A stretch of 64,000 nucleotides of DNA from Nocardioides albus (lineage in GTDB: Bacteria; Actinomycetota; Actinomycetes; Propionibacteriales; Nocardioidaceae): positions 1 to 64,000 of the forward strand of contig NZ_BMQT01000003.1 of the NCBI RefSeq assembly GCF_014648255.1, given 5' to 3'. Position 1 is the first letter of the stretch. The number at the start of each line of letters is the position of its first letter. Below, piece after piece: positions 2,480 through 38,620 of the stretch. Position numbers and translations under genes: made by a program. The notes below the pieces were generated by a model, which worked only from the letters and a program-made list of their open reading frames with translations, was not told where the DNA came from and did no database searches.

Positions 2480-4162
2480 TCACCGTACGTACCTCGGCGT
2501 CCAGACCTGCCCGGCCGCGGTCGCCCGCGTCGAGCTCGCGCCCACGATGACCAGGCACTTCATGTCGATCGAGGCCGGGTCCAGCTCGCCGAGGGTGGTC
2601 ACGGTGAGCGACTCCTCGGCCCGTCCGACGTCGCGGCCGACGACCACGACGGTGTCAGGTTTGCGGTGCTCCAGGAGTACGTCGCGGGCGGTGCCGATCT
2701 GCTCGGTGCGCGAGCGCGAGGCCGGGTTGTAGATGGCCAGCACCAGGTCGGCGGCGGCCACCGCGCGCAGCCGCTCCTCAACGACCGGCCACGGCTTGAG
2801 CCGGTCGGAGAGCGACATCACCGCGAAGTCGGCCCCGACCGGAGCGCCCGCCCGTGCGGCCACCGCCTGGACGGCGCTGACCCCGGGCAGCACCCGGATG
2901 CGTACGTCGGCATAGTCCGCGTCCTCGGCCGCCTCGAAGACGGCCGATGCCATCCCGAAGACCCCGGCGTCACCGCCGGAGACGACGGCCACCCTCTCCC
3001 CCGCCTTCGCCAGGTCCAGCGCGTGCCGGGCCCGGTCGACCTCGACCGTGTTGCCCGACGCATGCCGCTGCAGGCCCTCGCGCTGGGGCACCCGGTTGAC
3101 GTAGGGCGCGTAGCCGACAACGTGGCCGACATCGGCAAGCGCGGCGGAGACCTCGGGGGTCAGCCATCCATCCGGTCCCGGCCCCAGCCCGACGACGAGC
3201 ACCTCACCGGAGGCCGAGCCGGTCGAGTCGCCCCCGCGCGTCACCTCGACGGACCCGACCTCCGGGAGCTCTTGTCCCGCTGGTTGAGCCGCCGCCCCCG
3301 CGCCCGTCGGTCGAGCCGCCGGAGCCGCTAGGCGGAGGCGTGTCGAGACCAACAGGGTCGAATCGAGCGCAGAGGGGACCGTGTTGGTCTCGACACGCTC
3401 GCTAGCGCTCACGGCTCGACCAGCGGGTGCGGTCGGGGCGGTGTCGCCGGGGACGACGATGAGGGAGAAGTAGGGCACCGATGACGGGTCGACGTCGGCG
3501 ACCGGGAGCCAGCGCTCCTCGGGCTGCGAGGCGCGCTCGACGTACCAGGCACCCTCGAGCCGCCCGGCAGCCGCGAGCGCGGAGCGCACCGCGGGGAAGG
3601 TGCGGCCGAGCTTCATGATGATGGCGGCCTCGGTGTCGGCGAGGCGCCGGGCGAGCTCGGGCTCGGGCAGGGTGCCGGGCAGGACGGTGAGGACGTCGGT
3701 CTGGCGTACCAGCGGCGTCGAGACGGCGGCGGTGGCGGCCGCGAAGGCCGGCACGCCGGGAACCACCGAGGTCGAATAGACCTCCTTGAAGCGGTCGTGG
3801 AGATACATCGAGGAGCCGTAGAAGAGCGGGTCGCCCTCGGCGAGCAGCACCACGTCGCGGCCGGCGTCGAGATGAGCCGAGAGCCGGACCGCGCAGGATT
3901 CGTAGAACTCGGCCATCGCGCCCACGTAGCCGCCGGGATGGGTCGTGGTGCCGGTGGTGACCGGGTAGCGCAGCTCCTCCTCGATCGCGTCGGCGGGGAT
4001 CAGCGAGGAGGCGATCCGGCGGGCGTGGGACTGCTTGCGCACACCGGCGTGGTAGGCGACCACCGGCGCCGCGCCGATCAGGCGGGCGGCCTTGAGGGTG
4101 ATCAGCTCCGGGTCGCCCGGGCCGATGCCGACGACGGCGAACTTCCCGCGTACGTCGGTCAT
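2480..4162 (-). CDS. cobIJ: Fused precorrin-2 C20- and precorrin-3B C17-methyltransferase
   Basis: A 560-residue fusion of two tetrapyrrole methylases, as in M. tuberculosis CobIJ. Residues 1-245 are CobI (precorrin-2 C20 methylation), with VVGIGPGDPELITLKA, LLAEGDPLFYGSSMYLHDRF and VVPGVPAFAAA. Residues about 318-560 are CobJ (ring contraction and C17 methylation), with VVGLGPGPDGWLTPE and VVSGGDAGVFGMASAV. The 70-residue linker contains an in-frame insertion of dispersed palindromic repeats (residues about 247-284). The ATG at 4162 overlaps the stop of the upstream cobG-cobH gene (ATGA), indicating coupling. Confidence 0.94.
   Translation of the reverse strand: MTDVRGKFAVVGIGPGDPELITLKAARLIGAAPVVAYHAGVRKQSHARRIASSLIPADAIEEELRYPVTTGTTTHPGGYVGAMAEFYESCAVRLSAHLDAGRDVVLLAEGDPLFYGSSMYLHDRFKEVYSTSVVPGVPAFAAATAAVSTPLVRQTDVLTVLPGTLPEPELARRLADTEAAIIMKLGRTFPAVRSALAAAGRLEGAWYVERASQPEERWLPVADVDPSSVPYFSLIVVPGDTAPTAPAGRAVSASERVETNTVPSALDSTLLVSTRLRLAAPAARPTGAGAAAQPAGQELPEVGSVEVTRGGDSTGSASGEVLVVGLGPGPDGWLTPEVSAALADVGHVVGYAPYVNRVPQREGLQRHASGNTVEVDRARHALDLAKAGERVAVVSGGDAGVFGMASAVFEAAEDADYADVRIRVLPGVSAVQAVAARAGAPVGADFAVMSLSDRLKPWPVVEERLRAVAAADLVLAIYNPASRSRTEQIGTARDVLLEHRKPDTVVVVGRDVGRAEESLTVTTLGELDPASIDMKCLVIVGASSTRATAAGQVWTPRYVR
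3309..3424. repeat. Pair of REP-like palindromes inside cobIJ
   Basis: At 3309-3350 there is the same 42-bp palindromic unit found at 11974-12015 and 31760-31801 (ggtcgagccgcc ... gtgtcgagacc). At 3381-3424 there is an inverted variant (gttggtctcgacacgctcg ... ggctcgaccagc). The two face each other about 30 bp apart and are translated as the CobI-CobJ linker without breaking the frame. Confidence 0.85.
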
Positions 4163-5714: not shown

Positions 5715-5930
5715 CGGGTGCCACCAGAGCCAGCAGGTCTTCGGACTCGGAATCGATCGGAGCGGAGCGCCTTCCCGGAGCCAGGCTCCAGTGACTGCCT
5801 TCCGCCGACATCGACCAGAAGAGCGTGCCCCGCCCGTCATCCTCACCGCTGCGCGTCAGTCCCGGACTCTCACCGGGTTCCCTGACCCCATCAGGATGGA
5901 GTACGACTGGCAGGGCGAGACTACCCACTT
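5715..5930 (-). promoter_or_regulatory. Cobalamin riboswitch
   Basis: Read leftward, the RNA has the conserved core gggaacccggtgagagtccg (about 5882-5863) followed by ctgacgcgcagcggtga, and downstream the B12 box agtccgaagacctgctggct (5747-5728). This is the AdoCbl-riboswitch signature. A gtgccc/gggcac helix (about 5698-5660) close to the ribosome binding site of the cobG-cobH gene may be the expression platform. It should lower expression of the cob operon when cobalamin is plentiful. Confidence 0.92.
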
Positions 5931-12015: not shown

Positions 12016-12060
12016 AACACGGCTCCCTGCCGGAACGTCCCACCCGAAGGCTGGCCTGGG

Positions 12061-12201
12061 CCGCCGACCCGACTTCGAGGGTCTTCTCGACGAACACCGG
12101 AGTAAAGGACGGCCTTCGGCCGCCGGCTACGCCGGCCGCTACCGCGGTCCTTGACACCGGTGCCCGCCGAGAAAAAATTTGGCTGGCTATCGGGGCGGCG
12201 G
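12061..12201 (+). mobile_element. ~140-bp nested inverted-repeat element, copy A
   Basis: The ends are ccgccgacccga and tcggggcggcgg (11 of 12 pair). Inside, a stem aaggac/gtcctt encloses three consecutive hairpins (cggcc-ttc-ggccg, ccggc-tac-gccgg, ccgc-tacc-gcgg), and further outside ttctcg pairs with cgagaa. This gives a cloverleaf-like fold. Copies B (31858-31999) and C (13905-14044) have the same layout and length. The 216 bp between this copy and the HNH gene carry another hairpin (gtggccc-ttc-gggccac, 12259-12275). Confidence 0.75.
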
Positions 12202-12417
12202 CCCGGGTGTGGCGCAGCGGAATCTTGCTTCGAACGGGTGCTGCCGTGGGGCGGGAGGGTGGCCCTTCGGGCCACTTACCACCCACAGGTTTGAGGCCGT
12301 TCGCTCACCACGAAAAAGGCATTTGACCAGGGAGAATAGGTTCCCAGAACGGTGGTCGAGGAGTAGAATCAGAGCCATCACGACACGCCTCTGAACACTC
12401 GGAGAGGAGGGGCGGCG

Positions 12418-13680
12418 ATGAGCCTGGACGGCAGCATCGACCACTGGGGCATCAACCCCGCTGACGCGATCGATGCCGAACTGGCTGCCATCGAGTCCTC
12501 CCTCGACACCCTCCTGACCCGTGACCCTGCCTACTGGCGCACCAGCCAGAAGAAGACAGCCCTGGAACGGATCGAGCGACTGCAAGCGAAACAGGCCGCG
12601 TTGAAGCTGCGGATCCTGGCCGCTGCGGGGGATATCGCCGAGGAGACCGGCGCCAAAGACGTCTCCGGGTGGATGCTGACCGAACTGCTAGTCGACAAGA
12701 AGACCGGCCGCGCCGAAGTGAAATTCGCTGCCGCGGTGAGCAGATACGAGCTGGTCGCTGCCGGCCTCGCTGAGGGTGTCGTGTCCCAAGACAAAGCCCG
12801 GGTGATCACCAAAGCGCTCGAGGCGGTTGAGGCCGACCCGGCAGCCAGTCGTGAAGACCTGCTTCTCGCGGAGAAGCTGTTGGTCGACTACGCCACCCAG
12901 ATGACCGCCGAGGACCTCAAGAACGTCGGGAAACGGATCCTGTTCGAGGTCGACCCCGAACGCTTCGAAACCGCCGAGGCCAAAGCACTCCAACGCGAAG
13001 AAGAGGCCGCCCAACGGCGGACCTTCTTCCAGTCCCGCGCCAATGGGGATGGGACCGTGGACATCCACGCCCGCGTCTCGACCGCTGTCGCGATCAGGCT
13101 CCGCACGATCCTGGACTCCCTGGCGCAGCCCCGGAAGCTCTCGGCCGAGGACAAGGGCCGCAAGGCACCCTATGACCGGCTCCTGGGGCAGGCGTTCGCC
13201 CGGATCATCGAGACCTACGACGTCGACCAGCTCCCCCGCCATGGTGGCCACGCCACCACGGTGTTCATCACGATGAGCGTGGAGGATCTCCGCAACGACC
13301 TCGGTACCGCCGCGTTGGGGTTCGACGGGGACCAGATCACCGCCGCCGAGGCCCGCCGGATCGCCTGCAACGCCGACCTCATCCCCGTCGTCCTCGGCAC
13401 CGACTCCGAGATCCTCGACTTCGGCCGCAGCATCCGCCTAGCCCACCCCGTCCAACACCGAGCACTACGACTACGCGACAAGTGCTGCCAAGCCGAAGAC
13501 TGCGACGCCCCAGCAGCCTGGACCGAAGCACACCACCTGAAACCCTGGTCCGCAGGCGGCAGAACAGATCTGGCGAACATGGTGCTGTTGTGCCCCAGCG
13601 ACCATCGCCGGATCCACGACCCCGACTACACCCATGAGCGGCTACCGGACGGACGGATCCGGTTCACCCACCGCATCTGA
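12418..13680 (+). CDS. DUF222/13E12-family protein with C-terminal HNH endonuclease domain
   Basis: 420 residues. The N-terminal three quarters is a helical DUF222 (13E12 repeat) domain with Ala/Glu/Lys-rich stretches. An HNH nuclease domain lies at about residues 355-400: CCQAEDCDAP zinc-type cysteines, then AHHLKPWSAGGRTDLANMVLLC and the final DHRRIH histidine. A gagaggagg ribosome binding site precedes the ATG. The gene is flanked by inverted copies A and C of the ~140-bp element. The family is common in multiple copies in actinobacterial genomes (REP13E12 in M. tuberculosis); biochemical function is mostly unknown. Confidence 0.9.
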   Translation: MSLDGSIDHWGINPADAIDAELAAIESSLDTLLTRDPAYWRTSQKKTALERIERLQAKQAALKLRILAAAGDIAEETGAKDVSGWMLTELLVDKKTGRAEVKFAAAVSRYELVAAGLAEGVVSQDKARVITKALEAVEADPAASREDLLLAEKLLVDYATQMTAEDLKNVGKRILFEVDPERFETAEAKALQREEEAAQRRTFFQSRANGDGTVDIHARVSTAVAIRLRTILDSLAQPRKLSAEDKGRKAPYDRLLGQAFARIIETYDVDQLPRHGGHATTVFITMSVEDLRNDLGTAALGFDGDQITAAEARRIACNADLIPVVLGTDSEILDFGRSIRLAHPVQHRALRLRDKCCQAEDCDAPAAWTEAHHLKPWSAGGRTDLANMVLLCPSDHRRIHDPDYTHERLPDGRIRFTHRI

Positions 13681-13904
13681 CCGTGTCCGGCCTGCCCCGG
13701 GCCTGGCCGGCCCGGCTGTCCGACTCGAGCTTGTGAAAGTGTTCACGAGGTCGGACCCTCTGTCATAGCCAACGACAGGCGACCCCCGGCGCGAGTCAGA
13801 TGAGCGCCCCCAGCGGCCCCGGTCGGGGACCTCGCCCCAACAGGATCCATCGACCCGGGTCCTCAGTCCCGTACCCAACCCGAATATCGCTGCGCCATAC
13901 CCCG

Positions 13905-14044
13905 CCGCCGACCCGATAACCAGCCAAAATTTCTCGACGGATCACGGAGTCAAGGATCGCCGAAGGCGACCGGCGAAGCCGGCGGCCGAAGGCCGTCCTT
14001 GACGCCGGGAACCGTCGTGAACACCATCCACAACAGGTCGGCGG
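13905..14044 (-). mobile_element. ~140-bp nested inverted-repeat element, copy C
   Basis: Opposite orientation to copy A. The termini are ccgccgacccga (left) and ggtcggcgg (right). Read on the minus strand, tcaaggac and tccttga enclose cggcc-ttc-ggccg, ccggc-ttc-gccgg and tcgcc-ttc-ggcga. The third hairpin differs in sequence from copies A and B but still pairs, which argues for selection on structure. It lies between the HNH gene and lysR; the rest of this 408-bp gap shows nothing else. Confidence 0.72.
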
Positions 14045-14088
14045 CCCCAACAAAACGAAGAAGACCAACCCCGCGACACCCTCAGGAA

Positions 14089-31600: not shown

Positions 31601-31756
31601 CCGCTGGTCGAGCCGCCTCGCCCCGCTGGTCGAGCCGCCTCACCCCGCTGGTCGAGCCGCCTTACCCCGCTGGTCGAGCCGCCTCACCCCGCTGGCCGAG
31701 CCGCCTCACCCCGCTGGCCGAGCCGCCTCACCCCGCTGGCCGAGCCGCCTCACCCC
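31601..31756. repeat. 22-bp tandem array derived from the REP-like unit
   Basis: Seven copies of a 22-bp unit (ccgctggtcgagccgcctca plus cc), at 31603, 31625, 31647, 31669, 31691, 31713 and 31735, lead directly into a full REP unit at 31757. Three units read ggccgag instead of ggtcgag. The array begins 2 bp after the stop of the FAD dehydrogenase gene. Confidence 0.95.
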
Positions 31757-31806
31757 GCTGGTCGAGCCGCCGGAGCCGCTAGGCGGAGGCGTGTCGAGAC
31801 CAACAC
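31757..31806. repeat. REP-like palindromic unit
   Basis: Full copy of the 42-bp unit (31760-31801) plus the aacac tail, identical in this core to the copy at 11974-12015. It terminates the 22-bp array and is followed 56 bp later by copy B of the ~140-bp element. Confidence 0.9.
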
Positions 31807-31857
31807 GGTTGGTTCGGGAAACCTCGCTACGCGACTGTTTCTTCGTTTCAAGGTTCG

Positions 31858-31999
31858 CCGCCGACCCTTGATTGATTGTTTCTCGATCGGGTGCCGCCTC
31901 AAGGACGGGCCTTCGGCCCGCCGGCTTCGCCGGCCGCGTTCGCGGTCCTTGACCCGGCACCCGATCGAGAAAAGAATTTCGCCAGTATCGGGGCGGCGG
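31858..31999 (+). mobile_element. ~140-bp nested inverted-repeat element, copy B
   Basis: Best preserved copy. The termini are ccgccgaccc and tcggggcggcgg. An outer stem of 18 perfect base pairs (TTTCTCGATCGGGTGCCG at 31879-31896 with its complement at 31955-31972) encloses a second stem caaggac/gtccttg, which encloses three hairpins: cgggcc-ttc-ggcccg, ccggc-ttc-gccgg and ccgc-gttc-gcgg. The HNH gene begins about 108 bp downstream. Confidence 0.8.
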
Positions 32000-32107
32000 C
32001 GAGGGTGTGGCGCGGAGATCACGTTACATGTTCACCGACCGCATAATTCGGGGATGACCAGCACAAACAGGTAGACTCGGGGTGGTGTTGCGCATATAAT
32101 TGGCTGT

Positions 32108-33406
32108 ATGAACGAGACCATCGACCAACTCCTCACCGGGCCGCCCCTGGGCGCGTCCGAGAGTGAATTGGTCGACTGGATTTCTCGACTCGAAGAGGTC
32201 AAGTGCGTCGCCGAGGCGGTGCAGGCAGAAGCGGCGGTACGTCTCGAGGACGCTGTCCGCACCCGGCAGGCTGAGGCTGGGGTTCCTGCCCGCAAGCTCG
32301 GCGAAGGGGTCGCCTCCCAGGTCGCGTTGGCGCGACGGGTCTCACCCGTCAAGGGCACCAGTTTCCTTGGCCTGGCGAAGGTCTTGGTGGCAGAGATGCC
32401 CCACACGTACGCGTTGATGAGAGCAGGCCTGTTCTCGCAGTGGCAGGCCAGCATCCTCGCCCGCGAGACCGCCTGCCTCTCGGTCGAGGACCGTCGGGTC
32501 ATCGACTACCAGCTCTGCGCACTCGGTGACGACGGGCAGGCTCCGAAGGTCGTGGCCATGGGCCCACGGCAGCTCGAGAACGCCGCCAAGAAGCTCGCCA
32601 TCACCCTCGACCAAGAATCCGTCGTCAACCGAGCAGCAAACGCAGAGAAAGACCGCCGGGTCAGCGTCCGACCCGCACCGGACACCATGACCTGGCTCGG
32701 CGCACTGCTCCCCGTCAAGGACGGTGTCGCTGTTTATGCGGCACTCGACCAGGCCGCGAAGGCTGCGCAGGCGGCCGGTGATGAACGGACCCGGGGCCAG
32801 GTCATGGCCGACACCCTCATCGACCGAGTCACCGGACGCGCGGGCACCGAAGGCGTGAAGCCTCGGATCGAGGTCAAGATCGTGATGACCGCAGACTCCC
32901 TCACCAACGACAGCAACCAGCCCGCCATGATCGAGGGCTACGGCCCCGTCCCCGCAGGCTGGGCCCGCGAAGCACTCGCCGACGCCGAGGTCTTCGTCCG
33001 GAGACTGTTCACCGACCATGCCGGCCAGTTGGTCGCGATGGAGTCCCGCTCACGCAAGGCGCCCGACGGACTCGCGGAGTTCATCACCACCCGAGACGGC
33101 GGGATCTGCCGCACCGTCGGCTGCGACGCCCCGATCCGCAACGTCGACCACGTAGAACGCCACGCGGACGGCGGGAAGACCAGCGCGACGAACCTCCAAG
33201 GCTTGTGCGAGCGATGCAATCAAGCCAAGGAAGCCCTCGGCTGGCAAGCCAGGCCCGGACCAGACGGCAGCATCATCACCATCACGCCCACTGGTCATAC
33301 CTACGTCAGTCCACCACCCGAGACCTGGCGACCGGACCCACCGCCGCTGTCCCGAGCAGAGTTCACCCTGCGCGACGTACTCCTCGACCACCGCCGCGCC
33401 GCGTGA
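32108..33406 (+). CDS. DUF222/13E12-family HNH endonuclease-like protein
   Basis: 432 residues. DUF222 helical domain over about residues 20-300 and a C-terminal HNH domain: CRTVGCDAPIRNVDHVERHADGGKTSATNLQGLCERCNQAK (split across residues 331-372) with both zinc-type Cys pairs. The protein is clearly distant from the other HNH protein in the window (different N terminus and spacing), yet its upstream DNA has the same REP unit and ~140-bp element. No obvious Shine-Dalgarno. Confidence 0.9.
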   Translation: MNETIDQLLTGPPLGASESELVDWISRLEEVKCVAEAVQAEAAVRLEDAVRTRQAEAGVPARKLGEGVASQVALARRVSPVKGTSFLGLAKVLVAEMPHTYALMRAGLFSQWQASILARETACLSVEDRRVIDYQLCALGDDGQAPKVVAMGPRQLENAAKKLAITLDQESVVNRAANAEKDRRVSVRPAPDTMTWLGALLPVKDGVAVYAALDQAAKAAQAAGDERTRGQVMADTLIDRVTGRAGTEGVKPRIEVKIVMTADSLTNDSNQPAMIEGYGPVPAGWAREALADAEVFVRRLFTDHAGQLVAMESRSRKAPDGLAEFITTRDGGICRTVGCDAPIRNVDHVERHADGGKTSATNLQGLCERCNQAKEALGWQARPGPDGSIITITPTGHTYVSPPPETWRPDPPPLSRAEFTLRDVLLDHRRAA

Positions 33407-33495
33407 GAGGCGGAGGCAGCGCCTGCCGCGCACCGCAGCGATGGTCGACTCGTCGATGACCAGCAGGCTTCTACGCCGGTCAGACCCCTACTCGG

Positions 33496-34470: not shown

Positions 34471-35997
34471 TCACAGCCCCTGAGCGACGCGGTAGAACAC
34501 CTGGTTCCAGCGCACCTGGTCGGCGAAGCCGCGGCGGGTGGTGGACTCGTCGATGACCAGCAGCTCGGTGCGGGCGATGTCGGCGAAGACCTCGAAGGCC
34601 TCGATGCCGGCGGCGGTCGACATCACCGTGTGGTGGGCACCGCCGGCGGTCAGCCAGGCCTCGGCCGAGGTGGTGAAGTCGGGGCGCGGGGACCACACGG
34701 CCCGGGCGACCGGCAGGTTCGGCAGCGCCTGGGTCGGCGGGACCACGTCGACGACGTTGGCGGTCAGCCGGAAGCGGTCACGCATGTCGGCGAGCGAGAC
34801 GACCACCGCACCATCGACCGGGTCGGCGTCGAAGACCATCCGGACCGGGTCCTCGCGGTCGCCGATCCCGAGCGGGTGGATCTCGACCTTCGGCTTAGAG
34901 GTGGTCAGCGAGGGGCAGATCTCGAGCATGTGGGCGCCGAGGATGACCTCCTCGCCGGGGGTGAGGTCGTAGGTGTAGTCCTCCATCAGGGAGGCGCCGC
35001 CGGGCAGCCCCTCCCCCATCACCTTCGCGGCCCGCACCAGGACCGCGGTCTTCCAGTCGCCCTCGGCGCCGAAACCGTAGCCCTTGCTCATCAGCCGCTG
35101 AACCGCGATGCCGGGGAGCTGGCGCAGACCGCCCAGGTCCTCGAAGCTGGTGGTGAACGCCATCGCGTCACGCTCGACCAGGAACGCCTCCATGGCGATC
35201 TCCTGGCGAGCGGCGTACCGGAGCGACTCGTGGCGCTCGCCGCCACGGCGGAGCTCGGGGACGACGTCGTAGAGGTCCTCGTACTCGGCGACGAGAGCGT
35301 CCACGGCGGCCTCGTCGACGGCCTCGACAGCAGCGACCAGGTCGTTGACGCCCCACGTGTTGACCGAGACTCCGAAGCGCAGCTCGGCCTCGGTCTTATC
35401 GCCCTCGGTGACCGCGACGTTGCGCATGTTGTCGCCGAACCGCACCAGGTTCAGCTCATGGGTCGCCGCCCAGCCCGCGGCTCCGCGGATCCAGGTGCCG
35501 ACACGTCGGGTGACCGCCGGGTTGGAGACGTGGCCGACGACGGTGGTGCGGGCGACACCGAGACGGGTCGCGATGTAGGCGTACTCCCGGTCGCCATGGG
35601 CGGCCTGGTTGAGGTTCATGAAGTCCATGTCGATCTCCGACCAGGGGAGCTCGACGTTGGCCTGGGTGTGCAGGTGCAGGAGCGGCTTCTGGAGGGCGTC
35701 CAGACCGGCGATCCACATCTTGGCCGGGCTGAAGGTGTGCATCCAGGTGATGACGCCGAGGACGTTGTCGTCGGAGCTCGCCTCGAGCATCGCGCGACGG
35801 ATCGACGCGGAGTCCTTCAGGACGGGCTTCCACACGACCTTCGCCGGTACGTCCGAGGAGGCGTCGAGGGCGCGGGCGACCTCCTGGGACTGCTCGGCCA
35901 CCTGGCGAAGGGTCTCCTCGCCGTAGAGGTCCTGGCTTCCGGTGAAGAACCAGACCTCGCGGTCGCCATAGGGTTTCGGCGTGGTGGGCTTGCTCAT
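34471..35997 (-). CDS. araA: L-arabinose isomerase
   Basis: 508 residues, the usual length. Begins [26 protein letters not shown], a hallmark of AraA; metal ligands are in the [14 protein letters not shown] and EDYTYD regions and in [18 protein letters not shown]. It converts L-arabinose to L-ribulose. The ATG at 35997 follows ggaagga; it is last in araB-araD-araA, 42 bp after araD. Confidence 0.96.
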
Positions 35998-38372: not shown

Positions 38373-38440
38373 CACGGCTCCGTTTCTGCCCGACGGCTCG
38401 GGGTGGGGTTCGAGGCGATGTGAACGCTAACATGGACGGG

Positions 38441-38587
38441 CCGAAGCGTCACCCCCGTCGGCCGAAGCGTCACCCCCGTCGGCCGAAGCGTCACCCCCGT
38501 CGGCCGAAGCGTCACCCCCGTCGGCCGAAGCGTCACCCCCGTCGGCCGAAGCGTCACCCCCGTCGGCCGAAGCGTCACCCCGGTCGG
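38441..38587. repeat. 21-bp tandem array 1 upstream of araB
   Basis: Seven near-identical units ccgaagcgtcacccccgtcg plus g, at 38441, 38462, 38483, 38504, 38525, 38546 and 38567. Each unit is partly palindromic (ccga ... tcgg). The array begins about 70 bp before the araB start, so it covers its promoter or leader region. One frame could be read as a 7-residue repeat (RPTGVTL), but nothing supports coding. Confidence 0.95.
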
Positions 38588-38620
38588 CCGAGTTGGCAAC
38601 GTTGTGCCAACTCGGCCGAC
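38583..38620. terminator. Perfect inverted repeat between the two arrays
   Basis: Sixteen-base perfect arms (gtcggccgagttggca / tgccaactcggccgac) around acgttg. The outer ends match the repeat-unit ends. No T run follows on either strand, so it may be an operator or transcript-stabilising hairpin rather than a classic terminator of lacI. Confidence 0.6.

Follow-up and report, generated by a model that had tools for sequence, protein, structure and literature searches.

The long hairpin at positions 31879-31972 of a 64,000-nucleotide stretch of Nocardioides albus DNA (the window) belongs to a cross-shaped folding module, which is a repeated unit at a set place beside dispersed DUF222-HNH genes in Nocardioides. 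At the level of sequence comparison, the elements are dispersed, carry intact genes and are present at some orthologous sites and absent from others, and their modules have a set geometry, form inverted pairs and covary in their fold. We give about even chances to a reading in which the hairpin is the structured module at the 5' end of a DUF222-HNH element that is dispersed, insertion-like and accompanied by MITE-like derivatives, and in which the HNH protein encoded by the element would bind or nick it.

Structure of the module

The module around the hairpin, copy B, covers 31857-32000 on the + strand (about 143-144 nt) and scores 143.7 bits with our RNA covariance model R1, in whose building set it was included. 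An earlier note had reported a perfect 18-bp stem, and its coordinates proved exact: repeat search and folding place the arms of this stem, P1 (TTTCTCGATCGGGTGCCG), at 31879-31896 and 31955-31972. The second stem and three hairpins described inside it are also present. P2 (TCAAGGAC/GTCCTTGA, 8 bp, arms at 31899-31906 and 31945-31952) leads to a head of three hairpins on the + strand, at 31907-31919 (5 bp, TTC loop, with GC/CG swaps in other copies), 31920-31934 (6 bp, TTC loop) and 31935-31944 (3 bp, GTTC loop), joined in a four-way junction with no unpaired base. The folds further reveal an outer stem, absent from the earlier note, formed by GCCGCCGACCC/GGGGCGGCGGC at 31857-31867 and 31990-32000, with 10 pairs and one A-G mismatch.

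The stability attributed to this structure from the letters alone is borne out, since none of 200 shuffled sequences was equally stable with RNA or DNA parameters on either strand. RNA folding of 31860-31990 yielded -76.9 kcal/mol on the + strand (z -8.3) and -77.6 kcal/mol on the - strand (z -6.9); folding of 31857-32000 with DNA parameters yielded -57.3 (z -7.7) and -56.6 (z -7.8), respectively. The size of the fold is far beyond the need of a terminator. As the note had also observed, no T run lies 3' of the stem in copy B, which therefore lacks the combination of GC stem and T run that defines an intrinsic terminator; a simple T-run terminator at the module is rejected. The run that had been seen to follow the stem in copies A and C was found there too, an ATTT being common to copies A, B and C. 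The perfection of P1 in copy B is unusual: all 17 modelled P1 pairs are Watson-Crick in 17 of the 123 distinct copies, copy B included, and the middle of P1 is mismatched in the remaining seven copies of the B gene family.

Copies A (12060-12202, + strand) and C (13904-14045, - strand), both identified with the RNA model, are the two ends of one element, inverted around a second DUF222-HNH gene of the ORF2 family (12418-13680, + strand, from gene and domain searches). This pairing was absent from the earlier note, which had asked for agreement of the fold between copies. Such agreement is partial for the single-sequence folds of A and C, and the consensus over all copies is well supported. The outer stem forms in every DNA and RNA fold of both. 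Folded as DNA, copy C has the three-hairpin head on both strands; copy A retains the head above a shortened P1 on the + strand, and on the - strand its P1 is complete but the head is rearranged. Folded as RNA, copy A adopts the complete fold on the - (outward) strand only, and copy C has a rearranged head on both strands.

Association with DUF222-HNH genes

Model R1, built from 27 copies of the same genome, copy B among them, retrieved 29 full modules in that genome, besides a partial module and a site lying at the end of a contig. DUF222-HNH genes adjoin 27 of the 29: 22 modules lie beside genes found by the DUF222 profile and 5 before diverged genes that the Pfam search missed, one of which is seemingly frame-shifted. 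The two full modules with no adjoining DUF222-HNH gene are L175 and L176. Across the genus, module matches occur in 15 of 118 sampled Nocardioides genomes, including the present one, and in seven of the 118 at least 25 of the 27 candidates scored per genome match. Close relatives of the gene were found, among named genomes, in Nocardioides luteus, N. turkmenicus, Nocardioides sp. YR527 and MAG-46. Of 34 close loci, R1 matches 24 (L049 and L066 only partially or weakly), and the ten loci with no match all start at most 405 bp from a contig edge.

None of 46 distant DUF222-HNH loci, from other Nocardioides, mycobacteria, Arthrobacter and Sinomonas, matches R1. The module as a general DUF222 feature is thus out, and DUF222-HNH nucleases in general do not need it, which counts against our main reading. 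An upstream inverted repeat exceeds the best control in four of the 33 distant loci that have a control, most strongly in L077 (score 17).

In all eight B-family copies of the genome, the module lies 108 bp upstream of the ATG. We then surveyed 60 loci of up to 5 kb each from five relatives, restricted to model matches with E <= 1e-15; these loci were picked from the best-scoring listed matches and so are not a random sample. They contain 82 modules, 69 of which adjoin a DUF222-HNH gene (49 in front, 20 inverted behind). All eight B-family cases among them repeat the 108-bp spacing; for the ORF2 family, values of about 137 or 206-220 bp predominate. Loci of N. luteus have greater distances, with 322-463 bp separating module and gene in L051, L054, L065, L067 and L070, and the module is doubled in L051, L054 and L058. 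B-family elements have a module at one end only; in the sister ORF2 family, a second, inverted module is often found 3' of the gene, as for copies A and C of the window. The single module of the B family and the N. luteus spacing both weigh against the reading of the module as an element end.

The other 13 modules in these loci have no gene, and ten of them make up five inverted pairs. Gene-less pairs have their ends in common with gene-bearing elements and enclose small palindromes such as GTGAACGAATTTTCGTTCAC; they look like non-autonomous (MITE-like) derivatives. In genome G078, at least nine further gene-less inverted pairs occur among the listed matches. Of seven loci read there, five have a common segment of about 460-470 bp and two a shorter one, with a diverged module and different inner palindromes. 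That G078 is rich in gene-less pairs and yet has one DUF222 match argues against the main reading, keeping in mind that the profile can miss diverged genes, as it did in the present genome.

The inner palindromes vary among loci. The GTGAACGAATTTTCGTTCAC type is seen in gene-less pairs L266, L267, L269, L270 and L299, similar palindromes (GAACGTTCGTTC) accompany the solo modules L175 and L176, and the inner repeats of G078 are of another sequence, of the CACTCCTG type.

The copy B gene and its surroundings

The gene behind copy B (32108-33406, + strand) encodes a 432-amino-acid protein with DUF222 and HNH domains according to Pfam. DUF222-HNH genes are common in actinobacteria, and to our knowledge their function has not been established. 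Eight full-length copies of the gene, copy B being one of them, lie on six contigs of the genome and have 88-100% protein identity to copy B, the value being 88-93% for the others. All eight are open, with a median dN/dS of 0.13 and a maximum of 0.20 over 28 pairs, as expected under purifying selection. Residues C334, C339, D347, H348, N362, C367 and N371 are invariant in 43 aligned sequences, L083 having been excluded for its internal stops; with both domains and conserved metal and active-site residues, the protein belongs to the DUF222-HNH (13E12) family. The copy B and ORF2 genes are 25% identical over 136 aligned residues.

Among the eight copies, homology sets in at a REP-like palindrome with 22-bp tandem units and stops near the stop codon; additional common sequence follows the gene in L002 and L003. 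The palindrome (31758-31808, + strand), detected by repeat comparison, is common to copies A, B and most 5' modules of the genome. The tandem units (CCGCTGGTCGAGCCGCCTCACC, 31601-31776, + strand) are part of the repeat-rich left side of the inserted segment; this repeat family is absent from the empty L005 site, and similar units, variable in number, adjoin other copies of the element.

A promoter-like TAGACT-17-TATAAT (32072-32100, + strand), identified by consensus match, ends 7 nt before the ATG, so that a leaderless mRNA is likely. The TATAAT is present in 8 of the 8 B-family copies; a weaker match (9/12) lies inside the module at 31949-31977. With its likely promoter between module and ATG, the gene's own mRNA probably does not include the module, which weakens the case for a 5'-leader regulator.

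Database searches gave few leads on the protein. Plasmid DNA had no match, and no close relative was found among phage proteins (six records, best identity 40.5%) or plasmid proteins (seven records, best identity 47.5%). A PDB sequence search was uninformative, and a fold search with a mediocre AlphaFold model (mean pLDDT 74) had a best PDB E value of 0.4. PHROGs matches were mostly to HNH families, and PADLOC gave one weak match, to type IV restriction (E 4e-4), for the second (ORF2) gene only.

Several further features of these regions and of the window may be recorded. The tandem units of copy B number eight (CCGCTGGTCGAGCCGCC type, 31601-31776) and directly follow a FAD-oxidase-like gene. 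Small paralogous genes (MNNLLNRLVGDKKAWKRMEARAAELPADYRTVYSEMKSYMW... in L002) follow immediately downstream of the element B copies L002 and L003, and relatives also have similar flanks in pairs. Directly behind element B, a 25-bp stretch of the end of an araA-like gene is repeated at 96% (33442-33466 and 34539-34563), as if the hydrolase gene in between had been inserted, which is a conjecture. Elsewhere in the window, the only Rfam match at gathering score is a cobalamin riboswitch (5715-5925, - strand, 82 bits). Two facing REP-like palindromes at 3276-3427 (GCGTGTCGAGACCAACA, 3338-3354/3382-3398) have no module match, and a region of short direct repeats at 38420-38620, with RRPKRHP units in the ORF translation, contains a 16-bp perfect hairpin (38583-38598/38605-38620).

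Presence and absence at orthologous sites

Comparison of orthologous sites rests on copies B, L005 and L008, the A-C element and a gene-less pair of G072. In relative G001, both genes flanking copy B are found with no element between them, 64 bp separating the flank matches; this empty site has diverged, so that the ends of the element are not exact. The site of L005 measures 20 bp in G052, against about 1.8 kb in the present genome, and the element is present in G039. L008 is common to the present genome and G039; in five other relatives, the interval between the flank matches contains neither the gene nor a module, the sequence of two of these five having been looked at. At the site of the G072 pair, at least one module is found at the same place in several relatives, and none in G001. 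Both dispersed copies and presence or absence at orthologous sites, as looked for in a mobile element with inverted structured ends, are observed. On the opposite side, five of seven relatives have the A-C element at the same place (in the remaining two, contigs break at this point), and it is therefore at least old at that site. We observed neither a transposition event nor an excision product or a cut, and inspection of the examined sites by eye revealed no clear target duplication; all of this speaks against the main reading.

The empty G001 site of the gene-less pair contains a small ordinary hairpin between the same convergent genes. This brings forward the main rival, possible though on the whole unlikely, that modules act as bidirectional terminators or insulators between the nuclease gene and its neighbours, gene-less copies being common terminators of convergent genes. 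Besides the G001 hairpin, it would agree with a module located upstream of the gene's likely promoter and with a 3' module facing the gene's own mRNA. Furthermore, convergent genes flank 9 of the 13 gene-less elements and 19 of the 46 gene-bearing ones, versus 8 convergent pairs among 39 neighbour pairs in the window, a count made with a rough home-made gene caller that leaves out 16 of 75 loci having no called neighbour. However, convergent intergenic sites are also simply the least harmful ones for insertion. The module has no T run, no terminator was found at it, and it is far larger than termination needs. The strand folded in transcripts of convergent neighbours would be the inward one, in contrast to the bias presented below, which favours the outward one, and termination alone accounts neither for the fixed distance from genes of one family nor for the dispersed inverted pairs.

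Covariation and the probable folding strand

The alignment of modules comprises 129 rows, 126 of them distinct, all of which were counted for covariation. Standard pairs fill 92.3% of pair cells, a percentage raised by the fitting of the alignment to the model, and 19 pairs have changed on both sides. For covariation, the alignment scores 0.163; shuffles score 0.056 (none of 500 reaches the observed value) and slid structures at most 0.042. One of five covariation measures is contrary, further pair types numbering 34 versus 39.4 in shuffles. Helices 1, 3, 4 and 5, which are the outer stem and the three hairpins, are paired in 92.9-100% of cells; the middle of P1 is the least paired and most variable part between copies.

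Mismatches are unevenly distributed between strands. The strand-bias, single-base and P1 counts omit the last three rows of the alignment, which are second-strand reads of modules already included, leaving 123 distinct copies. The inward strand, which reads towards the gene, has 165 A-C cells and 49 G-U cells; a single pair contributes 37 of these G-U cells, and three pairs contribute 111 of the A-C cells. Events counted on a tree follow the same direction, with 40 changes from Watson-Crick to A-C and 11 from Watson-Crick to G-U. Inward-strand A-C mismatches are G-U pairs on the opposite strand. The A-C:G-U ratio is 111:21 in front modules, 37:17 in rear modules and 17:11 in gene-less ones. 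Single-base changes show no such bias (paired columns, 42 C>T and 41 G>A; unpaired columns, 31 and 27). The RNA energy of the consensus fold is lower on the outward strand in 114 of the 123 copies; in unrestricted minimum energies, the bias is weaker and favours the outward strand in 70 of 123. The aligned copies are related, so that none of these counts is made of independent observations. Mutation patterns thus favour the outward-facing strand as the one that would fold, and the bias suggests that selection acts on one strand, as RNA or as DNA, on that side. The contrary covariation measure, the 70 of 123 copies and the relatedness of copies are to be held against the main reading.

The same data bear on the idea that the module is a passive quasi-palindrome, which would owe its pairing to template-switch correction as the DNA replicates and would simply travel with the gene. 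The distribution of P1, perfect in 17 of 123 copies including B and mismatched in most, is what quasi-palindrome correction would give, and matches are confined to 15 of the 118 genomes of the genus. Yet the outer stem and hairpins stay paired while identity between the two genes is 25%, and the excess of A-C over G-U comes with no matching single-base bias. We regard a passive origin as quite improbable.

We find it unlikely, if less so, that the module is a structured non-coding RNA, transcribed from the outward strand as a partner of the HNH protein in the manner of HEARO or omega-RNA. Fold covariation, the lower consensus RNA energy of the outward strand and the complete RNA fold of copy A on that strand only would all suit such an RNA, and the HNH part weakly resembles the IscB model (21.8 bits versus a cut-off of 175). 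Against it, Pfam finds DUF222 and HNH models only and no RuvC domain, no Rfam family matches at gathering score, the minimum-energy RNA fold of copy C rearranges the head on both strands, and distant DUF222-HNH genes lack the module. In the copy B region, moreover, we found no promoter-like site for an outward transcript, and no guide-like flank at the end.

Comparison with known systems

The earlier note had proposed a folded substrate or structured RNA and named candidate families. A tie between the fold and the HNH gene is plausible in view of set spacing, covariation and strand bias; the named families fail. For the group-I-like candidate, no group I intron or other Rfam RNA matched the module at gathering score; a lax search returned only a eukaryotic snoRNA match, and a further weak match was to a microRNA family, both below gathering scores. 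REP/RAYT and IS200/IS605 elements are moved by a Y1 transposase, and the Y1_Tnp domain (PF01797) was found in none of eight genomes, although the same search was positive in 5 of 14 control genomes; both candidates are rejected on this ground. Elements of the IS605 type carry subterminal hairpins on one strand at both ends. Here, modules at the two ends are inverted, and the B family has one module. An element moved by a Y1 HUH enzyme is therefore largely refuted and highly improbable, for all that inverted pairs and an adjacent REP-like palindrome resemble REPINs.

RAYT genes are an example of a nuclease gene carried between two REP modules. The parts consulted of a study of REPINs and RAYT transposases (PMC3116915) describe intergenic palindromic modules, often in inverted pairs, and the likeness to the present elements lies in these modules, in the inverted pairs and in a nuclease gene between two of them. 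The differences are that the partner here is DUF222-HNH instead of a Y1/HUH enzyme, that the module is 143 nt long with a three-hairpin head, and that the gene itself is multi-copy. The mycobacterial REP13E12 or 13E12 family, treated as repetitive DNA in the portion consulted of one article (PMC10589994), likewise consists of multi-copy DUF222-HNH repeats; a probable difference is that none of the 46 distant DUF222 loci (30 mycobacterial by title) matches the module. HEARO and IscB omega-RNA, according to the sections consulted (PMC9755519), provide another case of a structured element directly upstream of an HNH-domain nuclease gene. In the present case, the RuvC plus HNH effector of such systems and a HEARO Rfam RNA upstream of the gene were looked for and not found, and the module seemingly lies outside the gene's transcript.

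MITEs of insertion sequences are gene-less derivatives keeping both ends. The gene-less derivatives described above also keep both ends; they differ in that the gene between the ends of the full element is DUF222-HNH, and in that no target duplication was found by eye.

A possible class of nuclease-driven elements

Set spacing, inverted ends and gene-less pairs fit the end of an element, and by analogy with RAYT/REPIN and IS/MITE systems we infer that the encoded nuclease would recognise the module. The module would fold as a single strand, more probably the outward one, either as RNA or as DNA exposed in replication or repair. In this form it would be the cis-acting end that the HNH protein of the same element binds or nicks; repair or copying at the cut might then spread the element. 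As a more tentative proposal, which we hold possible rather than probable, this would define a class of mobile elements in which a DUF222-HNH endonuclease, instead of a DDE or HUH enzyme or a recombinase, acts on a cross-shaped, three-hairpin end, functional as a single strand of RNA or DNA facing outward, and can mobilise gene-less derivatives in trans.

The consulted parts of the literature on DUF222-HNH/13E12 repeats, Nocardioides palindromes, REPIN/RAYT and HEARO/IscB contain no description of the module or of its link to the gene, and Nocardioides is not mentioned in the consulted part of a REP survey (PMC3733652). The protein family is known as a repeated one, and a separate element class is possible.

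A covarying structure at a set place beside DUF222-HNH genes in one group of bacteria is a concrete candidate substrate for these proteins. Such a substrate would show whether nuclease-driven mobile elements include DUF222-HNH genes as one more kind. Should the modules terminate transcription instead, they would provide many natural terminators, ready for use in GC-rich bacteria.
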